33,937 nucleotides of DNA from a virus: the IMG/VR virus record IMGVR_UViG_3300009163_002667, positions 1 through 33,937 of that record, one strand, 5' to 3'. Position 1 is the stretch's first letter. Every line of letters begins with the position of its first letter. A program made the translations under genes and the position numbers. Under the pieces are notes generated by a model. It was not told the DNA's origin and searched no databases. It worked only from the letters and a program-made list of their open reading frames with translations. This document shows, one piece after another, positions 3,753 through 33,904 of the stretch.

Positions 3753-3781
3753 TTGAAAGTTATCATAGCGCAGTGTAGCGT
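3753..3781 (+). promoter_or_regulatory. predicted leaderless promoter of the portal/head operon
   Basis: TTGAAA at 3753-3758, a 17-base spacer, and TAGCGT at 3776-3781 lie in the 68-base gap after terL. Seven bases (3782-3788) then separate the -10 from the ATG at 3789, so transcription would begin within about one base of the start codon. The -10 hexamer is identical to the one before the ParB-like gene. Confidence 0.6.
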
Positions 3782-3788
3782 GGCGGGC

Positions 3789-5141
3789 ATGTTCGGCATC
3801 GTCGACAAGCTGCGGGCGTTGGTCATGCGCGACGACTCGCGACGAGTCGAAGCGCCCATTGGCCGCATCGGTGGACCGACGACGACGAACGGCGCGGCCT
3901 ACGAGCCCGCACGCCGGTATCAGGCCCACCCCGACCGCGTCCTCGCCATGCGGTCGGCGCTCGTCTGCCCGCCCGTCTACGTGGCACTGGGCATGTGGCG
4001 CGACTTGATGCGCGTGCCAACGCCGCGAATCGAGCCGGGCAAGGTCGAGGGCGCCGAGCCAACGCCGAGCGCGATGGCCTACGCCGAGCACGTCAAAGCC
4101 TGCCTCGGCATTGGCGCTGCGAGCCTGACCGGCGTGCGGTGGTCGTCTCTGTGGGGCGAGCTGCTGGGCTCCGTTGAGTACGGCTTTGGCGTGTGGGAGA
4201 CCATCGCAGAGGAACACGGCGGCGAGTGGTACACCGTTCTCAAGTACCGCGACCCCGCGTCAATCGCGTGGTGGCTGATGGGCGAGGATGAAGAGCTTGC
4301 CGGGTGTGTTCAGCAGCCGTTGTCCGGTTACGGGCGCGGTGTCGAGATTCCAGCGTCGCAACTGTTCCGCCTGACGTGGCGGCCCGTCTCGCGCTCCGAC
4401 TTCAGCGGCATCGGCATCCTTCGCCCGGCCGCGACCCTCGCCGTTGACCATGCCGCAGCCGCGCAGCTTCGAATCGTGGGCGTCCAGCGGTTCGCCGTCG
4501 GCACCCCGGTTGCGAAGGTGGACGCCGACACGGCCGCGCGCCTCGGCCCGCAGGCTGTGAAAGACGCCGACGACATCGCGACGATGCTCTCGGACTACGC
4601 GTCGAGTGACCGCGCATACCTCGTCCCGCCGCCCGGGTGGGACGTGAGCATCTTCGGCGCCGACTACGACGTTTCGCGCATCAATGCCGTGCTCGCCGAC
4701 ATCTCGCGCTCGATTTACGAGCTCGTGGCGATGCAATGGATGTTGCTCGGCTCCGGCGAGGGCGGCGGCTCATACTCGCTCGGCGAGACGCAGGTTGCAG
4801 CGTCGCGGCAGAGCGCACAGGCGGTGTGCGACTGGCTCGGCGAGGAGGTCAACGCCGGCCTCATCCCGCGCATCTGCAAGTGGCGGTTCGGCGAGGTCGA
4901 CGCGGCGGACCTGCCGCGGCTGCACTTCGACGGGCTCGCCAGCGAAGCCTTCGTCACGCACCTCAGCAGCCTCGCCGCGCTGAATGCGGCCGGCATCCTC
5001 CAAATCGGCCCCGCGTCGCGCGCCAGGGTGCACGCCGCGCTCGAGTTGGCCCCGCCGGAAGAGAAGCGGTCGGTGGGCCTCGGCCTGCGCCCGCAGACCC
5101 CTGCGGCGCCCGCCATGCCCACCCCGGGCGGGGGCGCGTGA
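3789..5141 (+). CDS. portal protein, DUF935/Mu gp29-like
   Basis: A 450-residue portal, the dodecameric ring through which DNA enters and leaves the capsid. The open frame extends to a TTG at 3753, but that codon is the predicted -35 element, so I take ATG 3789 (MFGIVDKLRALVM). The match to the gp29/DUF935 type rests on overall order: an N-terminal region with RYQAHPDRVLAMR, a central WGELLGSVEYGFGVWE, WWLMGEDEELAG, the WRPVSRSDFSGIGILRPA segment and a long helix with GSYSLGETQVAASRQ. The C-terminus is Pro/Gly-rich. It follows terL and precedes the protease, the normal head-gene order. Confidence 0.85.
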   Translation: MFGIVDKLRALVMRDDSRRVEAPIGRIGGPTTTNGAAYEPARRYQAHPDRVLAMRSALVCPPVYVALGMWRDLMRVPTPRIEPGKVEGAEPTPSAMAYAEHVKACLGIGAASLTGVRWSSLWGELLGSVEYGFGVWETIAEEHGGEWYTVLKYRDPASIAWWLMGEDEELAGCVQQPLSGYGRGVEIPASQLFRLTWRPVSRSDFSGIGILRPAATLAVDHAAAAQLRIVGVQRFAVGTPVAKVDADTAARLGPQAVKDADDIATMLSDYASSDRAYLVPPPGWDVSIFGADYDVSRINAVLADISRSIYELVAMQWMLLGSGEGGGSYSLGETQVAASRQSAQAVCDWLGEEVNAGLIPRICKWRFGEVDAADLPRLHFDGLASEAFVTHLSSLAALNAAGILQIGPASRARVHAALELAPPEEKRSVGLGLRPQTPAAPAMPTPGGGA

Positions 5142-27241: not shown

Positions 27242-27278
27242 CGTCTTGCCTTTCGGTTGGGGCGCTTCGTTCGGCGCC

Positions 27279-27332
27279 GTTCATGAACAAAGAATAACTG
27301 AGCCCATGCCCTGTGTAAACATTTTATTTACA
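27279..27332 (-). promoter_or_regulatory. leftward promoter with two operator-like palindromes
   Basis: Reading leftward, TTTACA (27319-27314) and TATTCT (27296-27291) are exactly 17 bases apart, a good sigma-70-type promoter. A TGTAAA-N7-TTTACA inverted repeat (27314-27332) overlaps the -35, and the perfect palindrome GTTCATGAAC (27279-27288) overlaps the predicted start of transcription. The surroundings are AT-rich compared with the rest of the phage. Two palindromes on one promoter suggest repressor control. Confidence 0.68.
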
Positions 27333-27359
27333 GATGCGGTCGATTTGCAGGCCGCGCCA

Positions 27360-28637: not shown

Positions 28638-28897
28638 GCCGCATCTCCGTCATCACACTTGACGCCGGCCGCTTTCATCGCAGAGTACATCCGGTCGCGC
28701 TCCACGCGCAGCACCGCGACTTGCTCGACCAGTTCCTCATTTCGGTCCCCGAGTTCCTGAATCCTGGAATTCTGCCGGGCATTGAGGAAGTCCCATCTCT
28801 TGGCCCGCTCCATCATCACCATGTAGTTTGCCGCGTACCAGTGGAGCCGATCAGAGATGGTCGCGCTGTCCGGCAGTTCGTTGTCGTAGCTTCTCAT
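28634..28897 (-). CDS. small helical protein
   Basis: An 87-residue leftward protein from 28897 (ATGA overlap). A helical region runs from TISDRLHWYAANYMVMMERAKR to the end, with a coiled coil (NSRIQELGDRNEELVEQVAVLRVERDRM). The C-terminus is acidic with a CDDGD tail. It lies just after the DNA-binding gene and might pair with it. Confidence 0.6.
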   Translation of the reverse strand: MRSYDNELPDSATISDRLHWYAANYMVMMERAKRWDFLNARQNSRIQELGDRNEELVEQVAVLRVERDRMYSAMKAAGVKCDDGDAA

Positions 28898-29598
28898 GCC
28901 GCATCTCCGTCAAAGGGGTTGTCGTCTTCCACGGGCGGGGGCGGCGCGAGGTACGTCCGCAGGTCCGCCGCCCACTCGCCGCGCACCTTGCCCGCGAGGT
29001 ACTGCGCGGTCTTGATGCTCCACGTCTCGGGCGGGCCGGGGGACTTGCCCGTCTTCGCCTCGCAGAACTCGAGGAAGCCCACCATGTCGCAGTTCATTTC
29101 GCGCAGCACGGCGCGCACGGACGCGCGGTAGTCGTCGGCGCCCGGGGCCGGCGCGTCGTCCTGCTGCACGGCGCGGGGCTGCGTGCGCTTGGGCTCGTCC
29201 TTGAGCACGTCGATGCGGTGCTCGACCTTGCTTTTCTTGCTCGCGGCGAGGGTGATTTTCTTCGGCCCGTCGATGTGGCTCATGCCGCTGATACGGATTC
29301 CGCCGACCTCGACGCCGCCGTACTTGACGGTCGGGTCGCGGTACAGGCGAACGAGGCGCCCGGCCCACGCGGACGGGGCGGAACCCCAAAGCGCGGCCAG
29401 CACTCGCATCGTCGTCTTGCACGGCTTCCACGGCCGGAGGCCGCCGTCAAGCTCGACCGTGACCGGCTGTTCCATGCCGCCCGTGATGCGCGCCGAAACT
29501 ACTCGCACGGTCACAGGGCCGGCAATCAAGTCGTCCGCGTTCAACTGGTCGCTCTTCGCGGCCAGCAAAGGGGTGATGTCGTCGTTGTCGTTGCTCAC
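28894..29598 (-). CDS. putative DNA-binding/recombination partner protein
   Basis: A 234-residue leftward protein from GTG 29598, with an AGGAGG ribosome site and a GTGA overlap with the exonuclease. The N-terminal half has beta-rich repeats (ADDLIAGPVTVRVVSARITGG, QPVTVELDGGLRPWKPCKTTMRVLAALWGS, RLVRLYRDPTVKYGGVEVGGIRISGMS), a pattern I associate with an OB-like phage protein group of unknown function often beside recombination genes. After a Pro-rich linker comes a helical C-terminus with WSIKTAQYLAGKVRGEWAADLR. Tight coupling to the exonuclease suggests a single-strand DNA-binding or annealing role. Confidence 0.65.
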   Translation of the reverse strand: MSNDNDDITPLLAAKSDQLNADDLIAGPVTVRVVSARITGGMEQPVTVELDGGLRPWKPCKTTMRVLAALWGSAPSAWAGRLVRLYRDPTVKYGGVEVGGIRISGMSHIDGPKKITLAASKKSKVEHRIDVLKDEPKRTQPRAVQQDDAPAPGADDYRASVRAVLREMNCDMVGFLEFCEAKTGKSPGPPETWSIKTAQYLAGKVRGEWAADLRTYLAPPPPVEDDNPFDGDAA

Positions 29599-30461
29599 GC
29601 TTCGCCTCCTGCGTCTTCGATGGTCATCTCGTCGGCGGGGTAGGCCCACGCCGGCAAATCAAACTCCACCTCGCCCACGACGGGGCCGGGCCAGCTGCCT
29701 GACGCCTCGCACTGCGCGAGCGTCGCCAGGGCCGCTCGGTACTCCTGTCGCCCTCGCTCGAGCACATGCTCGGGAATGCGGTACACCGCGACCGCGTGGG
29801 GCGCGGCAGACTCGACCACGATTTCGACCACGGCCGGCAGGCGCCCCGTGATGGCCTGGAAACCGTCGCAGTAGAACGCCCACTGCCAGTGATAGCAGAG
29901 GTCCGCGGCTTGCGCGGCGAACTTGCGGGGGCGCAAGTCGCGCGTGGTCTTGAGGCCGACCACAACGTCACACCCGTCGATGGCCGTCAGCCAATCCACG
30001 CGGCCCTTGCAGGCCGTCCCCGTCTCCGCGTCGTGCCAGGCCATCGACACCTCGGCGTGACCGTGGCAAAGGTACACCATGGCCTCGGGGCAGCCGCGGA
30101 CGGCCGCAGCGATGGCGAGCGCGGTTGCGTGCTCGTCTTCAATCAACACGACGCGGCAGGCTGCCTCGGCGTCTGCCTTGAAGGCATCCCAATCCTTGCC
30201 GCGCCGGATGCCTCCGGTCCACGTGACGAACTCGGCAGAGAAGCGCGCGGGCTCCAGCGTGGCGCAGTGAGCGGCCGTCCCGAGCGCCATGGCCGAGCTC
30301 GTGGACTTCGGGTTGTCCTTTGCGTGCCTGTAGTGCAGCGGGGAGCAGTTGAACTCCTTCAAGCTCGACACGTTGACTCCCGCCGCGGCGCGGTAGTTGC
30401 CGAACGGCACATCGGCCACGATGCGCCCGGCCGAGTTGGATTCGAGCGTGCGCGCGCTCAT
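29595..30461 (-). CDS. RecE/YqaJ-type PD-(D/E)XK exonuclease with a changed active site
   Basis: A 288-residue leftward protein from 30461. It has the DUF3799/RecE C-terminal plan: VSSLKEFNCSPLHYRHAK (31-48), SSAMALGTAAHCATLEP, RRGKDWDAF, AEVSMAWHD, CKGRVDWLT and the closing YHWQWAFYCDG (190-200). Such enzymes degrade the 5' strand in phage recombination. Expected catalytic residues are H65, E137, D156, then D-x-K. The last motif reads G169-L-K171 where an aspartate should precede LK. The codon is GGC, one transition from GAC. The protein may be inactive, altered, or the sequence may contain an error. Confidence 0.8.
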   Translation of the reverse strand: MSARTLESNSAGRIVADVPFGNYRAAAGVNVSSLKEFNCSPLHYRHAKDNPKSTSSAMALGTAAHCATLEPARFSAEFVTWTGGIRRGKDWDAFKADAEAACRVVLIEDEHATALAIAAAVRGCPEAMVYLCHGHAEVSMAWHDAETGTACKGRVDWLTAIDGCDVVVGLKTTRDLRPRKFAAQAADLCYHWQWAFYCDGFQAITGRLPAVVEIVVESAAPHAVAVYRIPEHVLERGRQEYRAALATLAQCEASGSWPGPVVGEVEFDLPAWAYPADEMTIEDAGGEA

Positions 30462-31283: not shown

Positions 31284-31312
31284 TTGACGTGCGGCGCCGG
31301 CTTCTTTACGGT
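31284..31312 (+). promoter_or_regulatory. predicted leaderless promoter of the Cro/CI-like gene
   Basis: TTGACG at 31284-31289, a 17-base spacer, and TACGGT at 31307-31312, with six bases before the ATG at 31319. Its spacing and -35 match the promoter of the ParB-like gene. The AT-rich stretch 31255-31283, including seven T in a row, lies just upstream and is shared with the divergent promoter. Confidence 0.65.
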
Positions 31313-31318
31313 TGCCCC

Positions 31319-31525
31319 ATGCTCAACGAACAAATCGAAATATGGTGTGCGGCAAACGGCAAAAACCGGGCCGCATTGGCCGATGCGCTAGGGACGACCG
31401 CGAACGCTATCAGCAAGTGGGCATCGCGTCGCTCGGTCCCGCGCGTTGAGACGAACAAGCGCATCGCGGAGTTACTCGGGCTCGACCCGGTGAAGCTCCG
31501 AGAATGGTTCAAGTCGAAGCCGTGA
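31319..31525 (+). CDS. Cro/CI-like regulator
   Basis: A 68-residue protein. An upstream GTG at 31289 lies inside the promoter, so ATG 31319 is preferred. It is a single XRE-type helix-turn-helix: NRAALADALGTTANAISKWASRRSVPRVETNKRIAELLGL (about 15-55). It is like lambda Cro in size and shape and is encoded at a divergent control region, where it would set early against late or lytic against lysogenic expression. Being leaderless, it resembles lambda cI made from PRM. There is no dimerisation or cleavage domain. Confidence 0.82.
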   Translation: MLNEQIEIWCAANGKNRAALADALGTTANAISKWASRRSVPRVETNKRIAELLGLDPVKLREWFKSKP

Positions 31526-31674
31526 AGCTCTGCCCGACCCGTCAGCAACGACGGGCAGGGGTCCGCACTGACAAGGCCGGAAATTCTTCCGGAGTCAGGG
31601 ATGTGGCGCGCACCGGCCGCGCGCGGAAAGCCGGGAACGTTTTCAGCGTGGGGCGCTCGTGTCGTATTGGCTGA
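31522..31674 (+). CDS. possible 50-residue basic protein
   Basis: GTG 31522 overlaps the regulator's stop as GTGA, and the frame closes 16 bases into the replication gene, so it fills the gap exactly. The product is basic and Gly/Arg-rich (CPTRQQRRAGVRTDKAG...ARTGRARKAGN). Its junctions look like those of accepted genes, but the DNA also holds strong inverted repeats (31530-31598), so it could be non-coding regulatory sequence instead. Confidence 0.35.
   Translation: MKLCPTRQQRRAGVRTDKAGNSSGVRDVARTGRARKAGNVFSVGRSCRIG
31530..31598 (+). repeat. two strong inverted repeats between the regulator and the initiator
   Basis: First, CTGCCCG (31530-31536) with CGGGCAG (31552-31558), which competes with CCCGTC/GACGGG (31538-31543/31550-31555). 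Second, an extended hairpin: CTGAC (31568-31572), CCGGAA (31577-31582), loop ATTC, TTCCGG (31587-31592), GTCAG (31594-31598), with AAGG and A as bulges. Eleven base pairs surround a four-base loop. Neither has a T-run. They may be operators, a structured RNA before the initiator, or an attachment-type site. Confidence 0.55.
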
Positions 31675-32558
31675 AGCTCTATCAGGACACCCACGCAGAC
31701 GCCAGATTGCGCAAGGCCCGCGCTCGCGCAATCTGGCCTTGGATTCTCTGTCGCCTCAAAGACGGGGACGGGTTCGCGACTGACGCGGACCTCGACCCGT
31801 GGCGAGCTGCGGACGACCACGACGAGGTGTTCACTGAAGCCGAAGCGGCCGGGATGATTGAGCGGCTGAAGTCGGCCGGCCTGCTCGTGTCGACGGATTG
31901 CGGATGGGCCTGCCCAGATTGGGAGCGCCACGTCGGCGACCCGACGAACGCAGAGAGGCAGAGGCGATTCAAGGAACGGAAGCGCGCGCAGGAGCAATCA
32001 AGGGAAACGGTAACGCCAGGTAACAGTTACCGACCGTTACTAACGTTAGGTAACGGCGGTAACGGTAGAGCAGAGCAGAGCAGAGCAGAGAAGAAAGACG
32101 GTGATGAAGTAGAGGCTACGCGCGTGCGTGCGGTTGAAACACCGGCGCCGACCGTGGCCGAGTCCGCTCATGACGACGTGCAGACGAAAATCCAGGGCCA
32201 CCCGGCGCACGACGCAATCCTCCCGATTGCCAGCGTCGCTTTTTCCGTCCTCGGCGTCTGCCCTGAGGTCTACACCCTCGAATCATGGCTTCAAGCCGGC
32301 TACTCGCTGGCACGAATCGAATACGGGTTGCGGCAGGCGAAGCAGTCTGCATCCGGTCAATGGATGCCCATGGGCAAGATCATCATCTCCGCGGGTCGAT
32401 GGATGCAGCGCGCCGCACCGGAAGAATACCATAAGCGGCCTCAGCAGGCCGCAGGGGTTGCGAAAACGGTGCAACCCATATCCACGCCGCATGAACAGGT
32501 CAGGCGGCCTCTAACGCCAGAAGAGACGTCCGCAATGCTTGAGGAACTTGGCGTATGA
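31659..32558 (+). CDS. replication initiator, winged-helix, with iterons inside the gene
   Basis: A 299-residue protein from GTG 31659, preceded by a GTGGGG purine stretch. The N-terminus (MSYWLKLYQDTHADARLRKARARAIWPWILCRLKD) and the AEAAGMIERLKSAGLLVS segment have the form of phage replication-initiator winged helices of the lambda O/DnaD type. A basic stretch (ERQRRFKERKRAQEQSRE) follows. Residues about 118-150 are encoded by the iteron array and are probably an unstructured linker. The C-terminal 100 residues (LESWLQAGYSLARIEYGLRQAKQ) are helical and may contact the helicase. Lambda O has the same plan. The helicase gene follows at once (ATGA overlap). Confidence 0.75.
   Translation: MSYWLKLYQDTHADARLRKARARAIWPWILCRLKDGDGFATDADLDPWRAADDHDEVFTEAEAAGMIERLKSAGLLVSTDCGWACPDWERHVGDPTNAERQRRFKERKRAQEQSRETVTPGNSYRPLLTLGNGGNGRAEQSRAEKKDGDEVEATRVRAVETPAPTVAESAHDDVQTKIQGHPAHDAILPIASVAFSVLGVCPEVYTLESWLQAGYSLARIEYGLRQAKQSASGQWMPMGKIIISAGRWMQRAAPEEYHKRPQQAAGVAKTVQPISTPHEQVRRPLTPEETSAMLEELGV
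32009..32102 (+). repeat. candidate replication origin: GGTAAC iterons and purine-rich repeat
   Basis: GGTAAC or its complement occurs at 32009-32014, 32019-32024, 32026-32031 (reverse), 32035-32040 (reverse, GTAACG), 32049-32054 and 32058-32063, with the palindrome TAACGTTA at 32041-32048 in the middle. Directly after come four perfect AGAGC repeats (32067-32086) and a purine-only stretch to about 32098. Iterons beside a strand-biased, easily melted region within the initiator gene match the layout of lambda ori. The A+T and purine skew are unlike the rest of the phage. Confidence 0.72.
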
Positions 32559-33904
32559 AACTGAACCGAACCGAACTCGCAGAAGTCCAGACCATCGCGT
32601 GCTGCCTCGCAGGCGGCGCCGAGGCCATCGACGCGGCGTCCGACAACTGCGGCCCCGAGGACTTTGTGAACGCCCGAGCCGCGTCGGCGTTCAGGGCGAT
32701 GGTGCAGCTTGTGCACCGCGGCGACCCCGTGGACGTCGTGACCGTGGCCACGACCATGGGCGGCGCGGCGTGGAATCGCGAGTCGGGCGGGTCTGCGCTG
32801 GACGCGGACGCGCTCCAGTGGCTCGTCGACCTCGAGACAAACGCGCCGGGGGCTCGGGACGTCACGCACCACGCGAAACGGGTCCGCACCGCCGCCCGCC
32901 TCCGGGGCATTGAAGAAGCCTGCCGCGCCGGCCTCGCCGCTTGCCAGTCCGCCAGCGACGACACTGACGCCGCGGCTCAGGTCGCGGACGGCATCGTCGA
33001 GGGCCTGCTCGCGGTCGGCGACAAGGCGAGCGGGGCAACGTCCATTCGCATCTCCGGCGCTGTCAAGCTCATGCTCGCGGACTTCAAGGCCCGGCAGACG
33101 ACGCCGATTGAACGGCAGTACGTGCGGACTGGATTGAGCAAGCTCGACAACCTGGTCGACGGCTACCGGCCCGGTCACCTGTACCTGGTCGGCGGCGCCC
33201 CGGGGCACGGCAAAACCGGCTTCCTCACCTTCGCTGCGGTGCAAGGGGCCATCGCGGGGGCTGCGGTGCTCTACGCGTCGGCCGAGGTGCCTGCAGAGGC
33301 CATCGCGCAGCGTGTCGTGTGCAACGTCGCCCGCGTGGACGGTCGGAAGCTGGAGCGGCTCGACCTCGACCGCGACGAGACGACGCAGGTTGTGGGGAGC
33401 GCGCACCGCATCGCCGAGTGGCCGCTGTCCATCCTCGATGCGCCGGCTTTGACTGTTGGCTTGCTCGACCGCGAGATCCGCCGGCACGTCAAGCGCAACC
33501 CGGAGCGAATCGGCGTCTTGGTCGTGGACTACCTGCAGCTCGTCCGCGCGAGCGGGAAGCACGGCAGCCGGGAGCAGGAGGTCGCCGAGGTCGCGGACGG
33601 CCTGCTTGAGCTATCCAAGCGGCACCGCATCGTGGTCATCGCCGGGGCACAGCTCAATCGTGCGGGCGGGCAGCGGTCGGACAAACGTCCAGTCAGCGCC
33701 GACCTTCGCGAGTCAAGCCGCGGGGAGCACAACGCGTCTGTGGTGCTCATGCTCTATCGCCCGGGCATGAACGGCGAGGAGGCCGCAGACCCGACGCACG
33801 CCGAAATCATCGTCCGCAAAAACAGACTCGGGCCGCTCGGAACCGCGCTCTGCGTGTTCGACGCCGCCCGCAACACATGGAGGGACCGGGATGGATCTTT
33901 TTGA
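32555..33904 (+). CDS. dnaB: replicative DNA helicase, DnaB-type
   Basis: A 449-residue helicase, ATG 32555 (ATGA overlap). Residues 1-165 resemble the DnaB N-terminal domain (EVQTIACCLAGGAEAIDAAS, PEDFVNARAASAF). The RecA-like motor has Walker A GGAPGHGKT at 213-221, the catalytic Glu 244 in YASAEVPAEAI, Walker B VLVVDYLQL at 321-329 and QLNR near 367. A DLRESSRG segment and RKNRLGPLG supply the expected arginines. It unwinds the fork, loaded by the initiator encoded just before it. The length is near normal. The end overlaps the last gene by 14 bases. Confidence 0.9.
   Translation: MKLNRTELAEVQTIACCLAGGAEAIDAASDNCGPEDFVNARAASAFRAMVQLVHRGDPVDVVTVATTMGGAAWNRESGGSALDADALQWLVDLETNAPGARDVTHHAKRVRTAARLRGIEEACRAGLAACQSASDDTDAAAQVADGIVEGLLAVGDKASGATSIRISGAVKLMLADFKARQTTPIERQYVRTGLSKLDNLVDGYRPGHLYLVGGAPGHGKTGFLTFAAVQGAIAGAAVLYASAEVPAEAIAQRVVCNVARVDGRKLERLDLDRDETTQVVGSAHRIAEWPLSILDAPALTVGLLDREIRRHVKRNPERIGVLVVDYLQLVRASGKHGSREQEVAEVADGLLELSKRHRIVVIAGAQLNRAGGQRSDKRPVSADLRESSRGEHNASVVLMLYRPGMNGEEAADPTHAEIIVRKNRLGPLGTALCVFDAARNTWRDRDGSF

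Follow-up and report, generated by a model that had tools for sequence, protein, structure and literature searches.

A putative replication origin with GTAACG iterons inside a replisome-organizer-type initiator gene of an IMG/VR virus, and related arrangements in phages and prophages of several phyla

Results

Gene order and sequence features of the replication locus

The DNA analyzed here, called the window in the following, comprises positions 1 to 33,937 of the IMG/VR virus record IMGVR_UViG_3300009163_002667, and all coordinates refer to it. It contains a gene for a replication initiator that is preceded by a small regulator gene and followed by a gene for a DnaB-like replicative helicase, which was recognized by PF03796 (E 1.3e-57), PF00772 (E 1.5e-11) and phrog_19 (E 4.7e-76) (Table 1). 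The initiator is composed of an N-terminal winged-helix-like domain, a basic helix, a linker encoded by the repeats described below, and a C-terminal domain. In six of the eight relatives tested, the gene after the initiator encodes DnaB or a DnaC/IstB-like ATPase. In two other contigs (L007 and L009), the region corresponding to window 31289-33904 has an unrelated HTH_36 initiator between a small HTH gene and a gene for a DnaB helicase of 66% identity. AGGTGTC repeats occur in the HTH_36 initiator of L007, and the helicase of this contig is the closest one (66%) outside the two nearest relatives of the window, L002 and L003. The initiator/origin unit seems to be exchanged between conserved neighbours, because the unrelated L007 initiator stands beside a conserved helicase.

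Elsewhere in the window, an Exonuclease VIII-like gene (phrog_412, E 3.4e-72) precedes, on one and the same strand, the gene for a phrog_11517 protein of no assigned function (28897-30461), and the two possibly represent a phage recombination pair. A Mu-type portal protein is encoded at 3753-5141 (PF06074, E 1.8e-20), while the replication module consists of initiator and DnaB and is not of the Mu transposition type.

Table 1. Features of the replication region (window coordinates).
Feature	Position	Strand	Remarks
Small Cro/HTH regulator gene, upstream	31289..31525	+	HTH_31 E 1.2e-7, HTH_3 E 2.6e-7; initiating codon uncertain
Initiator gene	31659..32558	+	299 aa, GTG start
Basic-helix codons NAERQRRFKERKRAQ	31947..31991	+	proposed specificity helix, GTAACG type RQRRFK; model helix 95-111
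Iteron array, six GTAAC(G) cores	32009..32064	four + / two -	consensus from 58 relatives
Palindrome TAACGTTA within array	32041..32048		sequence; identical in L002/L003
Purine-rich repeat (AGAGC)4AGAGAAGAAAGA + flank	32067..32110	+	proposed opening/helicase-loading side
DnaB-like replicative helicase	32555..33904	+	start overlaps initiator stop

The linker codons contain GTAAC cores at 32010, 32020, 32050 and 32059 on the plus strand and GTTAC cores at 32026 and 32036, each with a flanking G that makes the site GGTAAC and/or GTAACG. The first-pass annotation had described six sites in both orientations inside the initiator gene together with the palindrome TAACGTTA, and both were found as described; the clustering was also correct, the cores covering 54 bases (32010-32063). 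Six GTAAC/GTTAC cores within this short stretch compare with ten in the rest of the 33,937-base window. When the linker was recoded synonymously 100,000 times, no version reached five cores, and no mononucleotide shuffle out of 100,000 did so either, the maximum being four in both cases. The array is followed by (AGAGC)4AGAG at 32067-32090, or (AGAGC)4AGAGAAGAAAGA at 32067-32098 in its full extent, which agrees with the previously noted order of four AGAGC repeats and a purine-only run; the pure purine run is 12 nt long (32087-32098), and the AGAGC units themselves include a C. The highest purine fraction of the window over 44 nt (0.84) starts at 32072, and 32005-32065 belongs to the least stable ~1% of all window 60-mers. 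The same plan as in lambda and P22, with an AT- or purine-rich unwinding region, had been proposed here. The tract is indeed purine-asymmetric and of low stability, but it is not AT-rich, having a G+C content of 50% versus 68% for the window. The repeats are clustered in the coding sequence of the initiator beyond chance and an easily unwound region adjoins them. The least stable DNA of the window according to the 60-bp nearest-neighbour energy is situated at 27276-27350, outside the replication region.

Conservation of the array and the consensus iteron word

The two nearest relatives, L002 and L003, are viral contigs whose initiators share 87% amino acid identity with that of the window; alignment of their two coding sequences showed no difference between them. 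Both keep all six cores and gain a seventh, while the leading G of GGTAAC is lost at several sites. Differences from the window within the array affect 0 of 30 core positions and 9 of 32 non-core positions (hypergeometric P = 0.0014). In the purine block, 0 of 14 third codon positions are changed in L002 as opposed to 62 of 265 outside the origin, and an unbroken identical run covers 52 nt (32059-32110), a length that does not stand out for these two genes (permutation p 0.11).

The comparison of iterons with related phages, which had been recommended in the first-pass annotation, was extended to 58 non-redundant relatives and changed the iteron word. GTAAC is followed by G in 85% of the sites and preceded by G in 14%, the latter base not being conserved. 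Because only the 3' G is conserved across these relatives, the word is GTAACG rather than GGTAAC as initially named. Judged from these alignments, it is GTAAC and not GGTAAC on which selection acts. A search pattern restricted to GGTAAC and AGAGC gave 0 matches, since GGTAAC is not the conserved word. In the same 58 linkers the sites occupy all codon phases, therefore the DNA word and not the peptide is kept. The orientations are -+ (67), +- (63), ++ (49) and -- (22), with spacings of 5-46 nt.

Relationship of the initiator protein

No Pfam, PHROG or NCBIfam model matched the window initiator at E<=1. Neither the lambda O family models (PF04492 / TIGR01610), searched with the N-terminal domain, nor the PF09681 / DnaD-like replisome organizer model in a direct HMM search gave a match, and tblastn of the initiator against phages gave none either. 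On this evidence the initiator does not count among the relatives of lambda O; the contig L014, found via its helicase, matches both lambda O family models. The earlier designation as lambda-like is therefore appropriate for the plan, that is, iterons followed by a purine-rich stretch in an initiator gene, but not for the kinship of the protein.

More sensitive comparisons hint at another family. The N-terminal domain with the linker removed aligned to PHROG_3926-type initiators with hhalign 95.6% (E 1e-8), whereas column-shuffled controls stayed below 1%. The PHROG_3926-type group in turn aligned to the PF09681 group with 89.9%, and the window to the PF09681 group with 38%. The annotation given to initiator PHROGs is replication initiation protein or replisome organizer. 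A structural model of the N-terminal domain based on 14 sequences (pLDDT 79) shows a winged-helix-like core and a basic helix; a whole-protein model from two sequences was discarded because of its pLDDT of 38.6. In a Foldseek search of a viral library, replisome organizers were among the top matches (E 8.3e-4), the best overall being an unnamed phage protein (1.8e-4). Matches in the PDB were weak, with the DnaD N-domain at TM 0.50 and E 0.2, and the VIA-align ranking of PDB entries returned ORC winged helices with Z up to 8, which indicate a winged helix only. Taken by profile-profile and fold similarity, the N-terminal domain appears to sit with phage replisome organizers and DnaD-like proteins.

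Distribution of the GTAACG block

IMG/VR was scanned with the pattern GTTAC-(1-30)-GTAAC-(1-30)-(AGAGM)3, which was found in at least 119 viral contigs, a count that includes matches of shared ancestry and not only independent events. The scrambled words GTATC/GATAC gave two matches, and the reversed order with the purine repeat first gave one, L227, which also has iterons before purines. Each of the 119 matches listed falls in an ORF that is read on the purine strand and has at least 100 codons, and the array is preceded by a helix of the type R[VQ]xx[HYFKSLNM][RK] in 105 cases. In genomes of bacteria and archaea the pattern was matched by 14 stretches, of which 13 are prophages with the same gene position from at least six phyla. 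Their hosts, named as deposited and partly metagenome bins, are Verrucomicrobiota including Akkermansia, Bradyrhizobium, Blautia, an Oscillospiraceae, Kluyvera, a Helicobacteraceae, Planctomycetes, a Myxococcales, a Thiotrichales and Lampropedia. The recurrence of one order and gene position in these viral contigs and prophages lends comparative support to the original reading of an origin inside the initiator gene. Searches with phrog_2509 and phrog_3926 in the classes of the genomes G002 and G003 yielded almost nothing.

To the GTAACG-word class we assign origins whose linker has at least three GTAAC(G) sites, with a helix R[VQ]xx[HYFKSL][RK] encoded before them and AGAGM repeats 3' of them on the coding strand. 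The window shows six sites after the helix RQRRFK and then (AGAGC)4. Named phages with the GTAACG word are Xanthomonas CP2, Enterobacter BUCT554 and Bradyrhizobium ppBjS10J-1; GTAAC arrays are absent from the 80alpha and P22 origins and from TP901-1. A second inverted GTAACG pair lies in the N-domain codons (about nt 149-167 of the initiator gene, ~190 nt upstream of the linker array) of CP2 (L170), BUCT554 (L169) and CBW1004C (L173). Such a pair is also present in many PHROG_2509-type relatives (for example L026 and L088), and the window is without it. The contig L152 from a Fervidicoccus MAG, binned as archaeal, contains tandem palindromes GTTACCTAGGTAAC at 82-155 that no ORF spans and that have an AGAG repeat nearby.

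Other iteron words in the same place

For a count that was blind to the word, loci were selected by protein only. They were PF09681 members from the class to which the Blautia genome belongs, PHROG_2509 members from the phylum of the Akkermansia one, and tblastn matches in phages. Ten distinct places had an AGAG-type repeat. Of the 5-mers that occurred three or more times within 100 bases upstream of this repeat, GTAAC (together with its shift CGTTA) ranked first with five of the ten places and CGGAC second with four. CGGACA fills the same slot as GTAACG, and a fresh scan for TGTCC..GGACA..(AGAGM)3 found at least 120 contigs, all those listed being in an ORF on the purine strand. Within the clostridial PF09681 sample, GTAAC arrays occur in 4 of 26 cases and GGACA, GTCAC or TGCAA fill the same place elsewhere. 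Since other words are found in this place, GTAACG is one word of several.

Candidate words in the clostridial sample are GTCAC, TGCAAC and CTAAC (L178, L190, L192, L197, L200, L179), several of them followed by purine-rich repeats, and L190 and L197 have the helix RRSRKSR and a TGCAA/GCAAC word in common. In the Salmonella phages epsilon15 (L167) and SPN1S (L168), GTAAC is absent and CGGAC repeats are present; in both, the gene annotated as DNA replication protein holds a candidate origin made of these repeats and, after them, AGAGAAGAGAAGAGAAGAGAAGA, which the records do not label as an origin.

Pairing of the basic helix with the iteron word

The helix R[VQ]xx[HYFKSL][RK] occurs in 61 of 74 GTAACG genes and in 0 of 32 CGGACA genes, whereas RK[RSA]xxR occurs in 0 of 74 and 19 of 32, respectively, both comparisons being made on non-redundant genes with shared ancestry ignored. 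Among 61 classifiable non-redundant proteins there was no exception to the rule that R[VQ]xx[HYF]R goes with GTAACG and RKxxxR with CGGACA. On a tree of the N-terminal domain from which the helix was excluded, the word changes seven times and the helix type six times, with no conflict in the 61 classifiable rows. Phylogeny-controlled comparison gave two supported independent pairs, both concordant (six on all branches), which are too few for significance. Because of this small number, the tree evidence that the word goes with the helix type is suggestive and not formally significant.

The clearest case is provided by L063/L121 and L259. The N-domains of L063/L121, which carry GTAACG, are 81% identical in protein to that of L259, which carries CGGACA. 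At the DNA level the identity is 87-97% just upstream and drops to 23-52% over ~110 bp that comprise the codons of the helix together with the iterons. The AGAGA block is again 100% identical, and the identity is near 80% beyond it. The corresponding cassette of the window would be 31947-32064 (118 bp), and its helix RQRRFK is of the GTAACG type, as predicted from the iterons.

Discussion

Given the repeats, their DNA-level conservation and their fixed order in front of a purine repeat, we regard it as almost certain, as far as sequence comparison can tell, that the array is an origin of replication located within a replisome-organizer-type initiator gene, with the DnaB helicase gene downstream. 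We hold with high confidence the joint reading that 32009-32110 is the phage origin within the initiator gene, where the initiator would bind GTAACG, open the AGAGM tract and place its own DnaB. The most likely mechanism can be drawn by analogy with TP901-1 ORF13, Tuc2009 Rep and lambda. The N-terminal winged-helix domain and the following basic helix NAERQRRFKERKR would bind the GTAACG sites cooperatively, the bound initiator would strain and open the adjoining low-stability, purine-asymmetric AGAGM tract, and it would then put the phage's own DnaB helicase, the product of the next gene, on the opened strand. On the coding strand the iterons stand strictly 5' of the purines, which suggests that recognition or opening may begin at one strand of the AGAGM tract. 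We infer binding, opening, helicase placement and this engagement of the AGAGM strand.

Short inverted sites with a Cro-like gene just upstream also look like operators, and the initiator or the Cro-like protein might regulate its own operon from them while replication starts elsewhere. However, the array is found ~350 bp inside the gene and not at its start, the AGAGM tract follows it in fixed order, the iteron word goes with the initiator's own helix, and arrays of homologous type are origins in TP901-1 and Tuc2009 (PMC8965321). We consider operators alone very unlikely, and autoregulation could coexist with an origin. A still smaller chance is given to the idea that the inverted repeats act as mRNA hairpins in attenuation or in translational coupling to the helicase gene. 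The folding z-scores of -2.7 to -3.8 in the window and L002 would fit such hairpins, but any array of inverted sites folds in this way, and orientations and spacings (5-46 nt) vary in the 58 relatives, therefore no common hairpin is expected. Finally, it is hardly credible that the repeats are a coding by-product of a disordered charged linker (VT..., RAEQSRAE) maintained for the sake of the protein. Although the linker is in frame and of low complexity, synonymous recodings fail to reproduce the array, one DNA word appears in different codon phases, and GTAACG and CGGACA, which are unrelated, encode differing peptides at this place.

Beyond the origin in the window, it is reasonably likely, though with less assurance than for the origin itself, that a widespread class of phage origins exists in which a ~110-bp 'specificity cassette' joins the codons of the DNA-reading helix and its sites, so that one small recombination changes both. 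The adjoining directional AGAGM repeat would serve as opening or loading signal, and the words GTAACG and CGGACA would recur across phyla and be predictable from the helix. If this is true, the origins of vaguely named or unannotated initiators from many phyla could be located by pattern, and the binding word could be predicted from six residues. It would also provide a concrete reason why origins are placed inside initiator genes, because the helix that reads the sites would remain linked to them; therefore, specificity could change in one step with replication unbroken. Moreover, as the AGAGM repeat has a fixed direction, it can be tested directly which strand is opened and where the helicase lands. 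In the literature searched, the coverage of which is incomplete, we found no account of GTAACG/CGGACA words shared across phyla, of a directional AGAGM repeat or of a helix-iteron cassette. Hence, the shared words, the directional purine repeat and the helix-iteron pairing are reported as not found there, and no claim of priority is made.

Iteron origins inside initiator genes are textbook knowledge, and strand-asymmetric repeats beside initiator sites are also familiar from the DnaA-trio and AT-rich DUE elements. Unlike these, the window has a pentamer AGAGM repeat, purines on one strand and another initiator. The same word as in the window is found in the PHROG_3926, PHROG_2509 and PF09681 initiators with GTAACG arrays (CP2, BUCT554, ppBjS10J-1, CBW1004C), of which CP2, BUCT554 and CBW1004C also share its order and the purine block. 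The purine units are AGAGA in CP2 and CBW1004C and AGAGG-type in BUCT554, whereas ppBjS10J-1 has none and the window has AGAGC; the C-terminal parts of these GTAACG-carrying initiators differ from that of the window.

Lambda carries iterons and an adjacent opening region in its O gene (PMC7466680). P22 and L pair their initiator with the DnaB-type gp12, and lambda, P22 and L have unlike iterons in the corresponding place (PMC8022706). The lambda ori and the gene 18 origins of P22 and L thus resemble the window in having iterons inside the initiator gene and then an easily opened stretch. However, the lambda and P22 iterons are longer repeats of a sequence unlike that of the window, and the opening region is AT-rich in lambda but GC-neutral in the window; the iteron of phage L, TGTCCAACGGA, includes TGTCC. 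For TP901-1 ORF13 and Tuc2009 Rep, binding to repeats in their own genes that serve as ori has been described (PMC8965321). TP901-1 and Tuc2009 differ from the window in the repeat word (CAACCAA in Tuc2009), in having no GTAACG array and in the next gene, which is not DnaB. Nevertheless, the rep gene of Tuc2009 is built like the window initiator gene, with a domain, repeats, a purine-rich tandem repeat and a C-terminal part, its linker containing CAACCAA repeats and then AGGATAG-type purine repeats, and the PHROGs 5968/10469/1163 of Tuc2009 are common to the GTAACG-type relatives L051/L035.
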